A stretch of DNA of 20,583 nucleotides. Origin: a virus. The notes under the pieces are model-generated. The model did not search any database. It was not told the DNA's origin and saw nothing but the letters and a program-made list of their open reading frames with translations. The stretch's first letter is position 1, and each line of letters begins with the position of its first letter. The DNA is taken from the IMG/VR virus record IMGVR_UViG_3300044953_000370, positions 1 through 20,583 of that record; one strand, written 5' to 3'. Both the position numbers and the translations under genes were made by a program. Below, piece after piece: positions 5,351 through 15,873 of this stretch.

Positions 5351-6058
5351 ATGAATAAATGTATTATTTGTAAATCTAAAACTAAAAATAAACTATATTG
5401 TTCTCGTGATTGTTACAATGTTCGTAGACCTAATATGGTAAAACGAAATGTAATACAAAAGCAATGTAAATTATGTAATACCATATTTGAAACCAATAGA
5501 ACTTCGGCTAAATTTTGTAGTGAAAGTTGTTATCAGATGAACAGAGCAAATACCAATATTCGGTTAAATTGTGGTAATTGTGGTAAAGAATTTTCCGTAT
5601 CAAAATATAGATACGAAAAGGGTTTAGTTAAATATTGTTCAATGAAATGTAGAAATACAAGCGATGAATGGATTAATTCTAATATTATAAAAAATATAAA
5701 CCAATTACATAAAATTGGATTAAATAAATTAGAATTAAAGGGTAGAACTTTATTAAATGAACTTAATATAGAATTTTTAGAACAAACGTTGGTATGTGGT
5801 AAATTTGTTGTAGATGCTTTAATACCTGATAAAAAAATAATAATTCAATGGGATGGAGATTATTGGCATGGTAATCCTAATTTTCTAAAAAATGGAAAAC
5901 CAAATAAATTACAAAATAAAAATATAGAAAAAGATATAAGAGTAAACAACGAACTTATTAAAAATGGATATAGAGTTTTACGATTTTGGCAAAGCGATGT
6001 AGATAATAACCCAGAATTTGTAGTAGAAACAATTAAGAAAATATATGGTAATGAGTGA
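5351..6058 (+). CDS. Zinc-finger EDxHD/Vsr-like endonuclease, probable free-standing homing endonuclease
   Basis: 235 residues. Three CxxC...CxxxC zinc-ribbon modules lie at the N-terminus (C4/C7/C17/C21, C39/C42/C56/C60, C74/C77/C96/C100), and the C-terminal half is a Vsr/EDxHD-like nuclease. It contains LELKGRTLLNEL (127-138), FVVDALIPDKK (152-162), IQWDGDYWHGNP (165-176), then NIEKDIRVNNELIKNGYRVLRF (191-212; D195). The DGDYWHG motif with a preceding Asp and following Asp fits the EDxHD family, which includes phage homing endonucleases such as I-Bth0305I. The zinc ribbons would read the target. It sits between the helicase and a Mom-like gene, more A+T-rich than its neighbours, with its last 8 nt (ATGAGTGA) shared with the next start. 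It looks like a mobile gene inserted at the end of the helicase gene. Confidence 0.8.
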   Translation: MNKCIICKSKTKNKLYCSRDCYNVRRPNMVKRNVIQKQCKLCNTIFETNRTSAKFCSESCYQMNRANTNIRLNCGNCGKEFSVSKYRYEKGLVKYCSMKCRNTSDEWINSNIIKNINQLHKIGLNKLELKGRTLLNELNIEFLEQTLVCGKFVVDALIPDKKIIIQWDGDYWHGNPNFLKNGKPNKLQNKNIEKDIRVNNELIKNGYRVLRFWQSDVDNNPEFVVETIKKIYGNE

Positions 6059-6650
6059 GGTAAAGGATTATATTGTTCAAGAAACATCGTTTAATCATTC
6101 CGTTAGAAAATTTCTAAAGAAGTGGCATTATTCTGATTATGTAAATATTCAGGCTAAACATACATTTTGTCTTTTCAAAAATGGAAAATTCGGAATACCA
6201 GAACTGATAGGAGTGTGTATTTACACAAGACCTGCCGGACCAACGGCAGGTAAAACGTATCATCCATCCAATCCAAATATGGTTTTGGAATTGAGAAGAT
6301 TATGTTTGATAGATGATACGCCGAAAAATTCGGAATCATTTTTTGTTGGTAAAACTTTAGGATGGCTTAAGAAAAATACGGATTGGGAATTTGTTATATC
6401 ATACGCTGATGAAGAACAAGGTCATACTGGAGTAATATATCGGGCATCAAATTTCAAATATTTAGGAAAAACTAAACCTGGAAAGGTGTTGGAAGTGGAT
6501 GGTAAAGAATTTCACATTAGAACATTATCTATGATGGATAGACCTTATGGAATTGAAATAAATAAACGATATAAAGAAAAAGATGAAGGTGTAAAAATAA
6601 TACAAACTTTACCAAAACACATTTATACATACGATTTAAGGAACAAATAA
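6051..6650 (+). CDS. Mom-like GNAT-fold DNA modification protein (first copy)
   Basis: 199 residues from ATG 6051, which overlaps the endonuclease stop; ATG 6045 would add two residues but lies in endonuclease-derived sequence. Features of the Mu Mom family, by recalled pattern: FLKKWHYSDYV near the N-terminus, ELIGVCIYTRPAG, the hallmark LELRRLCL, NSESFF, a block with SYADEEQGHTGVIYRASNFKY. Mu Mom converts adenine to N6-carbamoylmethyladenine and shields phage DNA from restriction; it is a modified acetyltransferase fold. A second, more divergent member lies at 10003. The exact chemistry here is unknown; it could also be an ordinary GNAT-like enzyme. The gene is followed by a 152-nt non-coding gap. 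Confidence 0.7.
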   Translation: MSEVKDYIVQETSFNHSVRKFLKKWHYSDYVNIQAKHTFCLFKNGKFGIPELIGVCIYTRPAGPTAGKTYHPSNPNMVLELRRLCLIDDTPKNSESFFVGKTLGWLKKNTDWEFVISYADEEQGHTGVIYRASNFKYLGKTKPGKVLEVDGKEFHIRTLSMMDRPYGIEINKRYKEKDEGVKIIQTLPKHIYTYDLRNK

Positions 6651-9791: not shown

Positions 9792-10019
9792 GTGAAAAAA
9801 ATTCCGTATATTAGGGTTATGTTAAAAGGTGAAGCTCATCCAATGAGCAAACTTACTGAAAAGCAAGTTGAGACGATTAGAGAACTATGGAAAATTGGAC
9901 ATCGTAATGTTAAAGTATTGGCTGTGAATCACAAAGTTTCATCTACAAACATTAAGAAAATAGTTACAAACAAAACGTGGAAACATCTGATAAAGTGGCC
10001 GTATGAAAGAAGCAAATAA
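9792..10019 (+). CDS. Small helix-turn-helix DNA-binding protein, like the tail domain of HNH homing endonucleases
   Basis: 75 residues from GTG 9792; an ATG at 9819 would give 66 residues and may be the real start. The segment HPMSKLTEKQVETIRELWK, then VKVLAVNHKVSSTNIKKIV and TNKTWKHL, matches a pattern common at the C-terminus of phage HNH homing endonucleases and in stand-alone phage HTH proteins. No nuclease residues (HNH) are present, so it is either a DNA-binding fragment left from a mobile nuclease or a small regulator. The 3' end overlaps the next gene by 17 nt. It opens the accessory block between the thioredoxin and DNA polymerase genes. Confidence 0.65.
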   Translation: MKKIPYIRVMLKGEAHPMSKLTEKQVETIRELWKIGHRNVKVLAVNHKVSSTNIKKIVTNKTWKHLIKWPYERSK

Positions 10020-10806
10020 ACAATATTGTGATGTATCCAGAGTTACAATTAGAGAAATAAGCCCATCGATTGCAAAAGAAATTATAGTTAAAAAACACTA
10101 TACTCATGCATGGACTGCATGTAGATACTCTTTAGGTTTATTTTACAGAACAGATGAAATAAACGCATTAGGAGATAATGAAAAATTAATCGGATGTTTG
10201 GTGTATGGATTTCCGGTAGGTGCAAGAGCAGCACTTTCAATTTCCGAATTACTTACGAAAGATAATGTATTAGAACTTACCCGTCTTTATTGTGATGATG
10301 GGTATGGTGCTAACATTGAATCGTATGCAATCGGACAATCTTTCAAATGGTTTAGAGAAAATGATAAAGCAATTAAAGTCCTAATTTCCTACGCAGATAA
10401 CGGACAAGAGCATTTGGGTGGAATATACCAAGCAACTAACTGGATATATCAGGGAATGAACACAGAAATTGCTTTAATGCCAAACTATGGTATATCTCTA
10501 ACAAAAGAACCTTACGATTGGATACATAGTAGGACAGTATTTTCAATGTGGGGTAGTGGTAATTTAGAACACCTTCGTAGAGAAATTGGAAAGCAAGGAT
10601 ATAAAGAGTTTTGGAGAAGGGAAGAACCACCAAAGCATAGATATGTGCAAGTGATTACAGGTGATAAAAAAGAAAAGAAAGCAATATTAAAATCCTTAAA
10701 GCATGAAGTTAGAGATTACCCAAAGAACGCAAAGGAATTTAACAAAGATATAGAACATTATTTAACAATCGCACCCGAAACGGAATTAGCAAGTAAGTTT
10801 TGGTAA
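10003..10806 (+). CDS. Mom-like GNAT-fold DNA modification protein (second copy)
   Basis: 267 residues. It shares the order of motifs with the gene at 6051: KKHYTHAW (30-37), LIGCLVYGFPVGA (62-74), LELTRLYC (90-97), a helix GQSFKWF, LISYADNGQEHLGGIYQATNW (127-147), then a family-specific second half with HSRTVFSMWG and a basic C-terminus (YPKNAKEF). Identity with the first copy is restricted to motifs, so these are old paralogs or independently acquired. Mom proteins modify adenine in DNA; this one is longer by about 70 residues and might differ in target. The ATG overlaps the preceding HTH gene. A promoter for the next gene begins within the last codons. Confidence 0.68.
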   Translation: MKEANKQYCDVSRVTIREISPSIAKEIIVKKHYTHAWTACRYSLGLFYRTDEINALGDNEKLIGCLVYGFPVGARAALSISELLTKDNVLELTRLYCDDGYGANIESYAIGQSFKWFRENDKAIKVLISYADNGQEHLGGIYQATNWIYQGMNTEIALMPNYGISLTKEPYDWIHSRTVFSMWGSGNLEHLRREIGKQGYKEFWRREEPPKHRYVQVITGDKKEKKAILKSLKHEVRDYPKNAKEFNKDIEHYLTIAPETELASKFW

Positions 10807-10856: not shown

Positions 10857-12023
10857 ATGTTTACAACAATTGAATTTACAGGAAAATGTGATGAATGGGT
10901 TTCCTTTGATAAAGTTAAACCTAGTAAAGAAAATGAAAGTATTTATGGAAATCTAAAAGAAGATAGAGAGTATATAGAAGAACTAAAAAAAGATATTACC
11001 GATATTGGTCTAACAACACCAATTTCAGTTTGGCCAAAAGGAAAATATTATGTTACAAAGGGTGGTCATAATAGAATGATTGCATTGTCGGAAATTGGAG
11101 AAACTCAACTTCCAATTGTTATTTTGGATAAAATGCCATCATCAACAATTGAAAAGATGGAACAGATGTTGAGTGATAATATGAGAAAAAGACAAACCAC
11201 TACTGAAAAATATAATTCAATAAAGACTATAAGAGACCAAAGAATCAAAGATATTGGTAGTTGTCCTGATAGAGAAATAAAAAGATATTGTATTAAAGTT
11301 CAAACAACTTGGAAAACATATGAAATGTTGAGAGAACTTGATGAAAAAAGACCAGATTTATTTCAAAGAGTTGCAGATGATGAAAACGCATTATCGGTTT
11401 CAGCAGCTTTCAAATTAATGAAAGAAGATGCAAAAAGAACAAGTAAACAACTTTCAGCTGCAAAAGCGCTAGATGATTTGATAAAAGAAGAGCATATTAA
11501 AAAAACAATTTTTTCATTCCAAGATTTTATGCACAGATTTTATGAATTAAATGTTAATATAAATGGTAATCGACATTCATTAGTTCCAACATATCAAGAA
11601 AACATACTGTCAGGTGTAGCACATGAAACATTTGCAAATATCATTGCTAAAATATTAACTGAAGATAAAAATATAAAAGTGGATGCACCAAACAATCAAA
11701 AACCATATGATTTAGTCATGCCTGGATATTGTTGGGAACCGGAAGTAAAATTTGCAAAATGGACTGGAAAAAATATACTAAATATTCATTGGCAGGGTAA
11801 ATATGCAAAATCTGGATATTATTTTTTAATAGCAGTTGACCATACAATTGAAAGATTTTTTGTTGCATATGGATTTATTAAAGATACTATGTGGGAAAGA
11901 GCAGGTCAATTGGTATCATTATCTTTAAAAAATGTTTATAATAGTAACTTAAAAACATTTTTAGGTGAAATTAAAGAAGTAAAAGGAGAATATCAAATAC
12001 ATTTAGATAAACCATCAATATAA
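10857..12023 (+). CDS. ParB/sulfiredoxin-fold N-terminal domain joined to a probable PD-(D/E)XK nuclease domain
   Basis: 388 residues. The N-terminal part has a ParB-type domain: VSFDKVKPSKEN (15-26), IEELKKDITDIGLTTPISVW (40-59), then KYYVTKGGHNRMIALSEIG (63-81) where GGHNR is the phosphate/nucleotide-binding loop, and an HTH-like helical segment (about 110-200). The C-terminal domain has KPYDLVMPGYCWEPEVKF (282-299), that is D285 followed ten residues later by E296-V-K298, the acidic-x-lysine signature of PD-(D/E)XK nucleases, then strands YYFLIAVDHT and FFVAYGFI. It could be a DNA-cleaving enzyme acting on host or modified DNA. No partition partner (ParA) is present. It has its own promoter and A-rich leader and is A+T-richer than the replisome genes. 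The nuclease assignment is by motif only. Confidence 0.7.
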   Translation: MFTTIEFTGKCDEWVSFDKVKPSKENESIYGNLKEDREYIEELKKDITDIGLTTPISVWPKGKYYVTKGGHNRMIALSEIGETQLPIVILDKMPSSTIEKMEQMLSDNMRKRQTTTEKYNSIKTIRDQRIKDIGSCPDREIKRYCIKVQTTWKTYEMLRELDEKRPDLFQRVADDENALSVSAAFKLMKEDAKRTSKQLSAAKALDDLIKEEHIKKTIFSFQDFMHRFYELNVNINGNRHSLVPTYQENILSGVAHETFANIIAKILTEDKNIKVDAPNNQKPYDLVMPGYCWEPEVKFAKWTGKNILNIHWQGKYAKSGYYFLIAVDHTIERFFVAYGFIKDTMWERAGQLVSLSLKNVYNSNLKTFLGEIKEVKGEYQIHLDKPSI

Positions 12024-12025
12024 TT

Positions 12026-13261
12026 ATGAAATTTTGGGATACAGGCGAAGAGCAAAAGAAAGCAGGATTTGATTTTGAAAAAGAAAAAGCAGAATTGATT
12101 GCAAACTTGCAATATCTCTTTGCAATGTCAGTACAAGAACAAACTCTCTACAAAAAGTGGATAGAGTGGAATGTTGATTTGCATAGTAGTATGAAATTAC
12201 TTCCAATACTTCATCAACAATACGATAAGATTTGGAAACCAAAAGATATATTCGATAAGGAAGCGACTATTGCAGAAATTCAAGCCATGCAACCTTATGT
12301 AGAAATAGTTGATGAAGATGAAGAAGCAACTCGTTGGACTTATATGAGAAAGTTAATTTCAACAATGGAATTTACTCCAAATCCTGGTCGTAATGTAAAA
12401 GCATATGTTAAAGATGGAGTTAATGGTAAATTATTGGGTGTAATTTCTTTAGGTAGTGATATTACGAGTTTGGGAGTTAGAGATGAATATATTGGTTGGA
12501 CTAAAGAAGATAAATTTAAGAAAGGTAAATTAAACAATACCGCAATCGGAACTTCTATTATAGCAACTCAACCTTTAGGTTATAATTTTTTAGGCGGTAA
12601 GTTAATATCACCATTGACAACATCCCCTGTATTTAGAGAACATTGGAAACAAAAATATGATAATACTTTAATTGCAGTAGGAACGACTTCTCTATATGGT
12701 ATTCATTCACAATACAATGCAATTCCACATTTCAAAACTTTAGGTGAAAGTAAAGGTAAAATCAGTATTAAACCTGATGATAAATTCTACGACCCATGGC
12801 ATCATTGGTTACAAGAAAATAGAGCAGATTGGTATAACACTCATATAATACAAGAAAGAGAACGTAATGGTATTAATATGGGGTATGAAAGAAACGGCCG
12901 TGGCCATGGTCCTGTTAGTGGTATTAAGCAAAAAATTCTAACACAAATATTTAGAGAGTGTGGCATTAAAGCAGACCAATATCATCATGGATTTAAGAGA
13001 GGTGTTTACTTCGCAATGATGTATGAGAATGGTTGTGAATTTCTTTGTGATAAAATTACCGAAGATAAATTAGTAATGAAAGATAAGTTTGCAGAAGGTG
13101 ATGATTATACTATCCGTTGGTGGAAAAAACAAGCAATCAAAAGATACACAAAGTTGCATGAAGAAAACAGATTAAAAAATGAAACTCTGTTTTATGCAGA
13201 TGCAATCGGATTGACTTGGGAACAAATGAAAGAAAAATTTTTAGCAGACGTAGGAAGATAA
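12026..13261 (+). CDS. DruA / DUF4338-like protein (tentative)
   Basis: 411 residues, ATG two nt after the ParB-nuclease stop. A central region from about residue 105 to 240 resembles DUF4338 (the DruA protein of Druantin defence): KLLGVISLGSD (135-145), VRDEYIGWTKEDK (151-163), a SIIATQP stretch, the helix PVFREHWKQKYD, then VGTTSLYGIHSQYNAIPHF (218-236). The latter parallels the SYAD...GHTG.IYRASNFKYLG block of the Mom-like proteins, which may mean a shared GNAT-type fold. The N-terminus is helical and acidic, and the C-terminus is long and basic-aromatic. In Druantin, DruA function is not defined; here it may act on DNA or modified bases. Confidence in the family is moderate, function unknown. 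Confidence 0.45.
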   Translation: MKFWDTGEEQKKAGFDFEKEKAELIANLQYLFAMSVQEQTLYKKWIEWNVDLHSSMKLLPILHQQYDKIWKPKDIFDKEATIAEIQAMQPYVEIVDEDEEATRWTYMRKLISTMEFTPNPGRNVKAYVKDGVNGKLLGVISLGSDITSLGVRDEYIGWTKEDKFKKGKLNNTAIGTSIIATQPLGYNFLGGKLISPLTTSPVFREHWKQKYDNTLIAVGTTSLYGIHSQYNAIPHFKTLGESKGKISIKPDDKFYDPWHHWLQENRADWYNTHIIQERERNGINMGYERNGRGHGPVSGIKQKILTQIFRECGIKADQYHHGFKRGVYFAMMYENGCEFLCDKITEDKLVMKDKFAEGDDYTIRWWKKQAIKRYTKLHEENRLKNETLFYADAIGLTWEQMKEKFLADVGR

Positions 13262-13305
13262 TTATGACAAGGCATAAGAAATGAAATAAGTGTAAACAAA
13301 AATAA

Positions 13306-13312
13306 AAGGAGG
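13306..13312 (+). promoter_or_regulatory. AAGGAGG ribosome-binding site in front of an ATT start
   Basis: A perfect AAGGAGG followed by TTGTT and then ATT 13318 (5-nt spacing). The other strong Shine-Dalgarno in the window (8635) precedes a GTG. TTG 13313-13315 is out of frame. A 7-codon minicistron (ATG 13264, MTRHKK then TGA) stands just before it. Confidence 0.6.
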
Positions 13313-13317
13313 TTGTT

Positions 13318-15873
13318 ATTTATCAGAATATCTACTATGAAAGGCAGAAAAACTTAATACATCTTTGGGATGATGAAAGAGGATATACAACATTTCCATA
13401 TCGTAAGTATGCGTATAAGAAAGACCCATACGGACAATATCGTTCTATAAATGATGATAAGTTAAGTAAAATAGGAAAGTGGGAAAAAAATGAAGCAGAT
13501 GAATTATTTGAAAGTGATGTTCCTGAAACGACAAGAGTATTGGTAGATATATACAATAGTGATATTCCATCGGTAGGTCATAGAGTAATGACGTTTGACA
13601 TTGAGGTAGAAATGGTATCAGGTCTACCGAATACAAAAGAGGCAGAAAACGAAATCACAGCAATTACAGCACATGATAGTGCAACAAAATTGTTTGATGT
13701 TTTTGTATTAGATAAACAAAGAAAAATTAAAAAAAATGCTGACAAATTTAGCAAAGATGGGCGAGAGGTTGGTGTTCACATTTTCGATAACGAGAAAAAT
13801 CTTTTATTTGCATTTCTTAATTACTACGAAGAAGTTAATTCGTCTATTCTTACGGGATGGAATATAGATTTCTTTGATATTCCTTATCTCTACAATCGTA
13901 TTAAAAAAGTTTGTGGTGAAGGAAATGCAAAAAGATTATCACGTATCGGACAATGTTTCTACTCACCATACAGAGACAAATGGAGTTTTGGTGGTGTATC
14001 TATATTAGATTACATAAACCTATACAAACAATACAATTTTGGTTTGGAAAGTTCTTACACCCTAAACCATATTGCTACAAAAGAATTGGGTAGAAGTAAG
14101 ATTGAATATGAAGGAAGTTTGGATGACCTATTTGAAAACGATTTGGAGAAGTTCATTGAGTATAACATTGTTGACGTGGAATTGGTAATAGCAATGGACA
14201 ATAAATTAAAGTTTATTGAATTATGTAGGGCCATATGCCACGCTGGTTATGTTCCGTATGAAGATTACATTTATTCTTCAAAATGGTTAGAAGGTGCATG
14301 TTTATCTTATCTTAAAACAAAAGGATTGGTAGCAACAAACAAGCCGGCAGATAGAAAACAAAGAATGCAAGCATTAAGAGATAATGATGAAGAGAAGTTT
14401 ATTGGTGCATATGTAAAAGAACCAATTGTTGGTAAGTATGATTGGATTTATGATTTGGATTTAACATCTCTATATCCATCAATTATTATGACTCTAAACA
14501 TATCACCCGAAACAAAGATTGGTAAGATTGAGAATTGGGATGCAGAAGCATGGATTAAAGGTGAAGATACTGGAACATATCGAATAGTTGGTAAAGATAA
14601 TACATACGAATACACTCGTCAGGAATTAGCAGAAGTAATCAAAGATAGTAATTTAGGAGTAGCAGCAAATGGAGTTCTTTATAATCAGGATAAGCCAGGT
14701 CTAATTGCGGATATTCTTAACACATGGTTTCAAAAGAGGGTTGAGTATCGTAAGTTGGAAAAGAAATATGGTGAGGAAGGAAATACAGAACAATATGAGT
14801 TTTATGGTAAAAGACAGCACGTTCAAAAAATCCTACTAAACTCAATGTATGGTGTATTAGGATTACCGGCATTCCGTTTTTATGATGTGGATAATGCGGA
14901 GGCAGTGACTCTGACCGGACAGGTGGTGATTAAGAAAACCGCTGAAATGGCAAACATCAAATATTGTAAAGAGTTAGAAACAAAACAGGACTATAATGTT
15001 TATATTGATACCGACTCAATCTATATGATGGCAGAACCTTTGGTAAAACACAGATACCCAGAATATAAAGAATTCGATGAAAAGAGAATGGCACAAGAGG
15101 TAAATACTATTGCAGAGGAAACGCAAGCTTTCTTAAATTCATTTTACAACTTATTAGCAGAGAGATTTTTTTTCATTCCAAAAGAGAAACACCGATTTGA
15201 AATTAAAAAGGAATATATTAGTAAAGCAGGATTTTGGGTAGCAAAGAAACGATACGCACAATGGATAATTTTAAAAAATGGCATTCCATGTGATAAGTTG
15301 GATATAAAAGGATTGGATGTTGTTAGAAGTTCATTCCCTAAATCATTTCAAAAGTTTATGTCCACAATTTTGAAAGATATCCTAATGGGTAAAGATAATG
15401 AATACATTGATGATACATTACTTACATTCAAAAAAAGTTTACCAACACTTCCTGTAAACCTAATTGCAAAGGGTGGAGCAATCAAAGAATTAAGTAAGTA
15501 TGATAATGGTAGTTGGCAGAAAGGCAAATCAGTTGCAGACTTTGAAAAGGGAACACCTGCACACGTAAAAGCCGGAATAGCATACAATAGATTATTAAAG
15601 TTTTTCAATTGTCCATATAAGCACGAACCAATTAGAGATGGTGACAAGGTAAAATGGGTATATCTTAAAACAAATCCATTGGGATTAGATACACTTGCAT
15701 TCAAAGATTATAATGACCCAAAAGAGGTTATGGACTTCATTGAAACTTACATTGATAGAGATAAAATATTTGAGACAGAATTGGAAAACAAATTAGATGA
15801 TTTCTACAACGCATTAAAATGGGAGAAAGCAACAATAGAAACAAAAACAGCTAAAAAGTTTTTTGCATTTTAA
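13318..15873 (+). CDS. 43: gp43-like family B DNA polymerase with 3'-5' exonuclease, probable AUU start
   Basis: 851 residues if started at ATT 13318 (T4 gp43 is 898). The frame is open from 13306, after TAA 13303-13305; ATG/GTG/TTG do not occur in frame until TTG 13540, so the usual start call would delete 74 residues that look like the family N-terminal domain (IYQNIYYERQ, LWDDERGYTTFPYRK). Exonuclease motifs: FDIEVE (D94, E96), LTGWNIDFFDIP (D184), NIVDVELV (D286). Polymerase motifs: A DLTSLYPSII (D381), B QKILLNSMYG (K504, N508), C YIDTDSIY (D564, D566). The C-terminus AKKFFAF resembles a clamp-binding peptide. The start has a strong Shine-Dalgarno. AUU starts are known in E. coli infC. 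A sequencing error that removed an ATG is the alternative. Confidence 0.88.
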   Translation: MYQNIYYERQKNLIHLWDDERGYTTFPYRKYAYKKDPYGQYRSINDDKLSKIGKWEKNEADELFESDVPETTRVLVDIYNSDIPSVGHRVMTFDIEVEMVSGLPNTKEAENEITAITAHDSATKLFDVFVLDKQRKIKKNADKFSKDGREVGVHIFDNEKNLLFAFLNYYEEVNSSILTGWNIDFFDIPYLYNRIKKVCGEGNAKRLSRIGQCFYSPYRDKWSFGGVSILDYINLYKQYNFGLESSYTLNHIATKELGRSKIEYEGSLDDLFENDLEKFIEYNIVDVELVIAMDNKLKFIELCRAICHAGYVPYEDYIYSSKWLEGACLSYLKTKGLVATNKPADRKQRMQALRDNDEEKFIGAYVKEPIVGKYDWIYDLDLTSLYPSIIMTLNISPETKIGKIENWDAEAWIKGEDTGTYRIVGKDNTYEYTRQELAEVIKDSNLGVAANGVLYNQDKPGLIADILNTWFQKRVEYRKLEKKYGEEGNTEQYEFYGKRQHVQKILLNSMYGVLGLPAFRFYDVDNAEAVTLTGQVVIKKTAEMANIKYCKELETKQDYNVYIDTDSIYMMAEPLVKHRYPEYKEFDEKRMAQEVNTIAEETQAFLNSFYNLLAERFFFIPKEKHRFEIKKEYISKAGFWVAKKRYAQWIILKNGIPCDKLDIKGLDVVRSSFPKSFQKFMSTILKDILMGKDNEYIDDTLLTFKKSLPTLPVNLIAKGGAIKELSKYDNGSWQKGKSVADFEKGTPAHVKAGIAYNRLLKFFNCPYKHEPIRDGDKVKWVYLKTNPLGLDTLAFKDYNDPKEVMDFIETYIDRDKIFETELENKLDDFYNALKWEKATIETKTAKKFFAF

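Follow-up and report, generated by a model that had tools for sequence, protein, structure and literature searches.

The DNA polymerase gene of a T4-like lake phage very probably begins with an AUU codon placed behind an exceptionally strong Shine-Dalgarno (SD) sequence, and codons of the AUU type recur at the start of this one gene in a wide group of uncultured phages. The analysis covered the 20,583 bases of the IMG/VR virus record IMGVR_UViG_3300044953_000370, called the window below. The polymerase frame directly follows a stop codon (TAA, 13303-13305) and is open from 13306, and the ATT at 13318 stands 5 nt (TTGTT) after AAGGAGG (Table 1). The first in-frame ATG, GTG or TTG is the TTG at 13540, 74 codons downstream from this ATT. 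The preliminary description of this DNA was accurate on each of these points. The product contains exonuclease and polymerase domains like those of RB69 and T4 gp43, which makes it a T4-type family B polymerase, and the N-terminus that it has in common with its homologues lies in a frame without ATG, GTG or TTG nearby.

Comparison with about 80 polymerase relatives (82-94% identity) showed that the codons aligned with the start read ATG-TAT-CAA-AAC in nearly all of them. The exceptions were two sequences with an added ATG-GCA, one truncated sequence, and L066, which has ATT as in the window. In ATG-type relatives, the start usually lies a few bases past the stop of the upstream gene, without a proper SD. 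The relatives thus begin, with ATG, at the codon equivalent to 13318, and neither at the equivalent of TTG 13540 nor at a nearby restored ATG. The dN/dS ratio of codons 2-74 (Table 1), calculated against relatives at 89-94% identity, is equal to that of the rest of the gene; judging from this substitution pattern, these codons are under purifying selection and hence translated. Since codons 2-74 are translated and the ATG of the relatives aligns at 13318, the start was placed at this position. The earlier assignment of 13318-13539 to the polymerase N-terminus therefore stands on close relatives and selection, but not on direct likeness to T4, as the T4 and RB69 polymerases of the PDB are similar only from residue 74 onward. 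Relatives, selection and the recurrence described below all support an AUU that is a real start behind a real SD.

Table 1. Features at and upstream of the polymerase start in the window.
Feature	Coordinates	Strand	Remarks
DruA-domain (PF14236) protein gene	12026..13261	+	E 6e-18; in many ATG-type relatives its stop directly precedes the polymerase start
Decayed 3' end of a GIY-YIG homing endonuclease gene (best reading)	13259..13305	+	Translates as MTRHKK*NKCKQK*, against RHQNGKNCKQK* and RHQTSNKCITI* at the end of intact versions
Shine-Dalgarno AAGGAGG	13306..13312	+	9-bp helix AAAGGAGGU with a Bacteroidota-type 16S tail
AUU start codon of the DNA polymerase (very probable)	13318..13320	+	Of 80 relatives, nearly all have ATG at this codon; ATT/ATA/ATC/TTG in others
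Polymerase codons 2-74, lost if the start were TTG 13540	13321..13539	+	dN/dS 0.03-0.08
Family B DNA polymerase, 851 aa from AUU (P0001)	13318..15873	+	Pfam DNA_pol_B and DNA_pol_B_exo1; RB69 gp43 structures, E 5e-74

The same leader was detected in other phages. The sequence AAGGAGGT[T/A]GTT-ATT-TATCAG precedes the polymerase in the independent contigs L084, L085, L066/L086, L087 and L088, and a scan with the pattern AAGGAGGTNGTT-ATT-TATCA gave matches before the polymerase in L084, L085, L086 (the same as L066), L087 and L088; a further match, in L083, was unrelated and due to chance. Wider polymerase searches revealed ATT starts in L094/L095 (the same contigs as L085/L084), L097, L134, L135, L150-153 and L159-161/L213, ATA starts in L163/164/169/171 and an ATC start in L136. 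Many marine relatives have TTG at this codon. L183 and L187 were not kept as AUA starts, since both have an in-frame TTG four codons ahead of the ATA. In a tree of 146 polymerases, at least eight changes separate AUU/AUA/AUC from ATG/TTG starts (counted after removal of two ambiguous rows), gains and losses being indistinguishable on the tree. AUU was retained between L094 and L097 at a synonymous divergence of 0.56, where a single base change would give AUG. When 1754 ORFs of these neighbourhoods were compared all against all in an unbiased screen, 21 polymerase ORFs proved to lack a canonical start, each with about 130 aligned homologues; some of the 21 are from near-identical or duplicate contigs. 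Recurrent AUU/AUA/AUC starts were found in this screen for the polymerase only, and the remaining non-canonical starts belonged to antisense frames, short ORFs or singletons, for example a dUTPase-like ORF of L033. This recurrence at one gene over a wide group of uncultured phages suggests deliberate control of the amount or timing of the polymerase. No report of AUU-started phage polymerases was found in the open-access literature searched, and gene finders limited to ATG, GTG and TTG will truncate these proteins.

AUU-type starts are coupled to an SD. Of 16 AUU-type rows, 15 have a core SD motif at a distance of 4-10 nt from the start, compared with 9 of 108 ATG rows, where the motif is formed by the last bases of the preceding gene (GGGGAGATAA). 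Among seven independent pairs, about six favour an SD with the AUU-type start and none the opposite (median p 0.03). The polymerase SD of the window pairs with a Bacteroidota-type 16S 3' tail at -12.9 to -13.6 kcal/mol, against a median of -1.75 and a best value of -8.1 kcal/mol for the leaders of 18 other ORFs of the window, and the polymerase start ranks first among 165 candidate start codons, in line with the initial remark that so strong an SD is unusual here. Polymerase leaders of the freshwater AUU phages range from -12.9 to -17.0 kcal/mol, near the values published for rpsU of Flavobacteriales (-14 to -21 kcal/mol; PMC9976891). In G010, the AUU phage L097 and a 120-kb relative of the window phage, the median of the other leaders (98 ORFs) is -1.5 kcal/mol, and the polymerase AUU ranks first of 1395 candidate start codons. 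The window and G010 thus both present an exceptionally strong SD on an SD-less background, the pattern known from rpsU. Pairing is less strong for the marine AUU/AUA leaders (-6.5 to -7 kcal/mol), and G008, the one marine phage examined, uses SDs broadly across its genes. Unless initiation itself is under selection, it is difficult to account for recurrent AUU-type starts that are confined to one essential phage gene and tied each time to an SD.

The hosts of the freshwater group are probably Bacteroidota, since the phages combine Flavobacterium-type bS21 matches with SD-less, A-rich leaders. Genes for bS21 were present in 5 of 19 related phage records. Compared with PDB chains, the bS21 of G010 matched 9i5v (4e-11) and 7jil (3e-10), the latter from the F. 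johnsoniae ribosome, with the next chain at 6e-4; that of G002 gave the same ranking, less sharply, and for both the best match is a Flavobacterium-type bS21. No bS21 gene was found in G003 and G004, two large related records, or in the window, which is a fragment. Bacteroidota promoter-like motifs are in modest excess in G010 (21 vs 11 expected). The probable host group, overlooked in the preliminary description, changes the likely mechanism. Bacteroidota ribosomes normally ignore SDs, the 16S tail being held by bS21, bS18 and bS6; in Flavobacteriales, rpsU is the only SD-controlled gene (pairing of -14 to -21 kcal/mol) and is autoregulated through its SD, being translated by ribosomes lacking bS21 (PMC9976891). 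In lake Bacteroidetes phages, the phage bS21 is expressed late (PMC9723584).

The best explanation of the sequence patterns, which we favour by a modest margin of belief, is that the weak AUU and the strong SD would control the polymerase through SD-competent ribosomes. A weak start codon would be paired with an exceptionally strong, optimally spaced SD, and initiation would depend on SD pairing because the AUU is weak and the SD strong. Ordinary Bacteroidota ribosomes, presumably also on the mRNAs of these phages, hide the anti-SD and initiate on AUG in A-rich leaders. Replacement of AUG by AUU would thus remove ordinary initiation and leave only the SD-competent ribosomes, presumably the bS21-free ones that also read host rpsU. 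The polymerase level would consequently be held low, and its synthesis would be shut off once bS21, phage-encoded in relatives, fills the ribosomes late. Discrimination by IF3 against AUU could add a brake, and an IF3-sensitive or weak-start control is plausible. It is reasonably probable that the AUU start is regulatory in some way. Much more tentatively, SD and AUU could form a double lock opened only by bS21-lacking ribosomes and closed late by phage bS21, a replication timer in SD-blind Bacteroidota. The position of the start, its recurrence and its linkage to an SD can be read directly from the sequences, and the ribosome mechanism is what we infer from them. The bS21 idea fits the freshwater part of the group only, since marine SDs are weaker and G008 uses SDs generally. 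Most relatives, the closest included, have AUG without an SD, so that control by SD and AUU would be dispensable in the clade.

Non-canonical starts under IF3 control have been described for infC (AUU, Escherichia coli) and sigR (GTC, Streptomyces) (PMC5472188). The polymerase resembles both in carrying a non-canonical start on a dosage-sensitive gene, and the IF3 start-codon discrimination known for infC and sigR would extend to it. It differs in being a phage replicative polymerase outside any IF3 autoregulatory loop, and no IF3 gene was found in the 19 related phage records. With rpsU of Flavobacteriales, the polymerase shares an exceptionally strong SD that stands alone among genes otherwise lacking one; here, however, the gene is a phage polymerase with an AUU start, pairing is -13 to -17 instead of about -20 kcal/mol, and the response to bS21, known for rpsU, is a putative one.

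The main rival explanation is that SD and AUU are a by-product of endonuclease insertion and of escape from re-cleavage. The replaced segment, with its own SD, AUU for AUG, CAG for CAA and AAT for AAC, would keep the polymerase translated while altering the endonuclease recognition site, and the AUU would be non-regulatory. We regard such a homing scar or homing immunity as unlikely on balance, though a serious candidate. An intact GIY-YIG gene lies directly before the same SD and ATT, followed by TATCAG, in L066/L086 and L088; the copy in L087 has an internal deletion. The endonucleases score 28.5 and 31.6 bits with PF22945 (cut-off 27), and at one site the gene is present in L066 and L088 and absent from their respective sisters L065 and L039, which start with ATG. 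Domain score and presence/absence together identify a GIY-YIG homing endonuclease with putative cleavage activity. The left junction in the carriers retains a piece resembling polymerase codons 4-9, minus the ATG, and flank co-conversion is usual for the free-standing endonucleases of T4 (PMC2988022). In the window, positions 13251-13317 can be aligned to the L088 leader together with the 3' end of the endonuclease gene before it, with a score of 56, against a maximum of 40 in 200 shuffles; without the SD part, the alignment is marginal (38 vs a maximum of 37). Because of this alignment, the best interpretation of MTRHKK* is a relic of the endonuclease gene and not the controlling minicistron first suggested. 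On the favoured explanation too, the leader in the window probably arrived with a homing endonuclease cassette inserted at the polymerase start and then outlived it. The window and its endonuclease-bearing AUU kin could have received the leader passively.

However, L084/L085/L097 have the leader without an endonuclease, under promoter-like sequence and with a long-kept AUU, so the leader exists independently of the endonuclease. No such cassette was found in the marine AUU/AUA/ATC leaders read, and an origin by homing leaves the maintenance of AUU without explanation. Among known systems, seg43 adjoins gene 43 of Aeromonas phage 25, and the seg and mob genes of T4 encode free-standing homing endonucleases (PMC2988022). 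Both cases link a GIY-YIG endonuclease gene to the polymerase gene in T4-like phages; here, in contrast, the endonuclease sits at the polymerase start codon, followed by SD and AUU replacing AUG, and the window has a remnant only. A group I intron was not favoured, as the insert of the carriers (about 650 nt) is nearly all endonuclease ORF. Left of the endonuclease ORF in L066 (3796-3835) and L088, a motif resembling codons 4-9 of the polymerase occurs twice (AACATTTATTAYGA, AATATTTATTAYAA), perhaps a target duplication.

Another explanation, which we consider improbable, is an autogenous operator, with the polymerase binding its own mRNA leader and the weak start sharpening repression. T4 gp43 is under such autogenous translational repression, with an AUG start and the protein binding an operator, and the control point would in both cases lie at the leader of homologous polymerases. 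The present phages do have a short private leader directly 5' of a gp43-type polymerase. Single-sequence folds of the AUU-type leaders are weak, however, and no obvious common hairpin was seen over the SD.

There is very little room for initiation elsewhere, either at TTG 13540 or at the out-of-frame TTG 13313 followed by a frameshift. The first was rejected because it would lose 73 residues of a conserved N-terminus. The second is present in the window, but it abuts the SD and is missing in most AUU-type relatives, and no canonical start in any frame lies near the SD in L066, L088, L097, L134, L135, L150, L159 and L163. Least probable of all is the loss of an ATG through an error of sequencing or assembly: the window is one metagenomic contig only, but other metagenomes yielded independent contigs with the same leader and ATT, as did diverged polymerases, which makes the base error considered at the outset very unlikely.

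If the link between the polymerase and bS21 is true, the polymerase would be a second natural client of bS21-lacking ribosomes besides rpsU, and the link would help to explain the presence of bS21 genes in lake phages, for which PMC9976891 and PMC9723584 offered no settled answer. It could be tested directly in Flavobacterium johnsoniae, for which reporters and bS21 mutants exist.

Other features were observed in these phages. Short inverted repeats (GATT-TTAT-AATC, AGGT-ATATA-ACCT) lie just 5' of the start in ATG-type marine polymerase leaders (for example L162, 3970-4000, and L176) and might form an operator hairpin. In L150 (4001-6700), as in L151-L153, an apparent insertion, intein-like or nuclease-bearing, ends the polymerase frame after 586 aa. 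The C-terminal half of the polymerase is taken up again some hundreds of bases further on, so this may be a fractured gene with a split intein. The window encodes two Mom-family proteins (6045-6650 and 10003-10806; PF25680, E 3e-37 and 2e-41), a hint of DNA base modification. Between a DnaB-like helicase gene and a Mom gene, an ORF at 5351-6058 with DUF559 (PF04480) nuclease likeness and cysteine motifs is likely another homing endonuclease. The ORF at 10857-12023, which adjoins the DruA-domain gene, looks ParB-like by eye, with no Pfam match.
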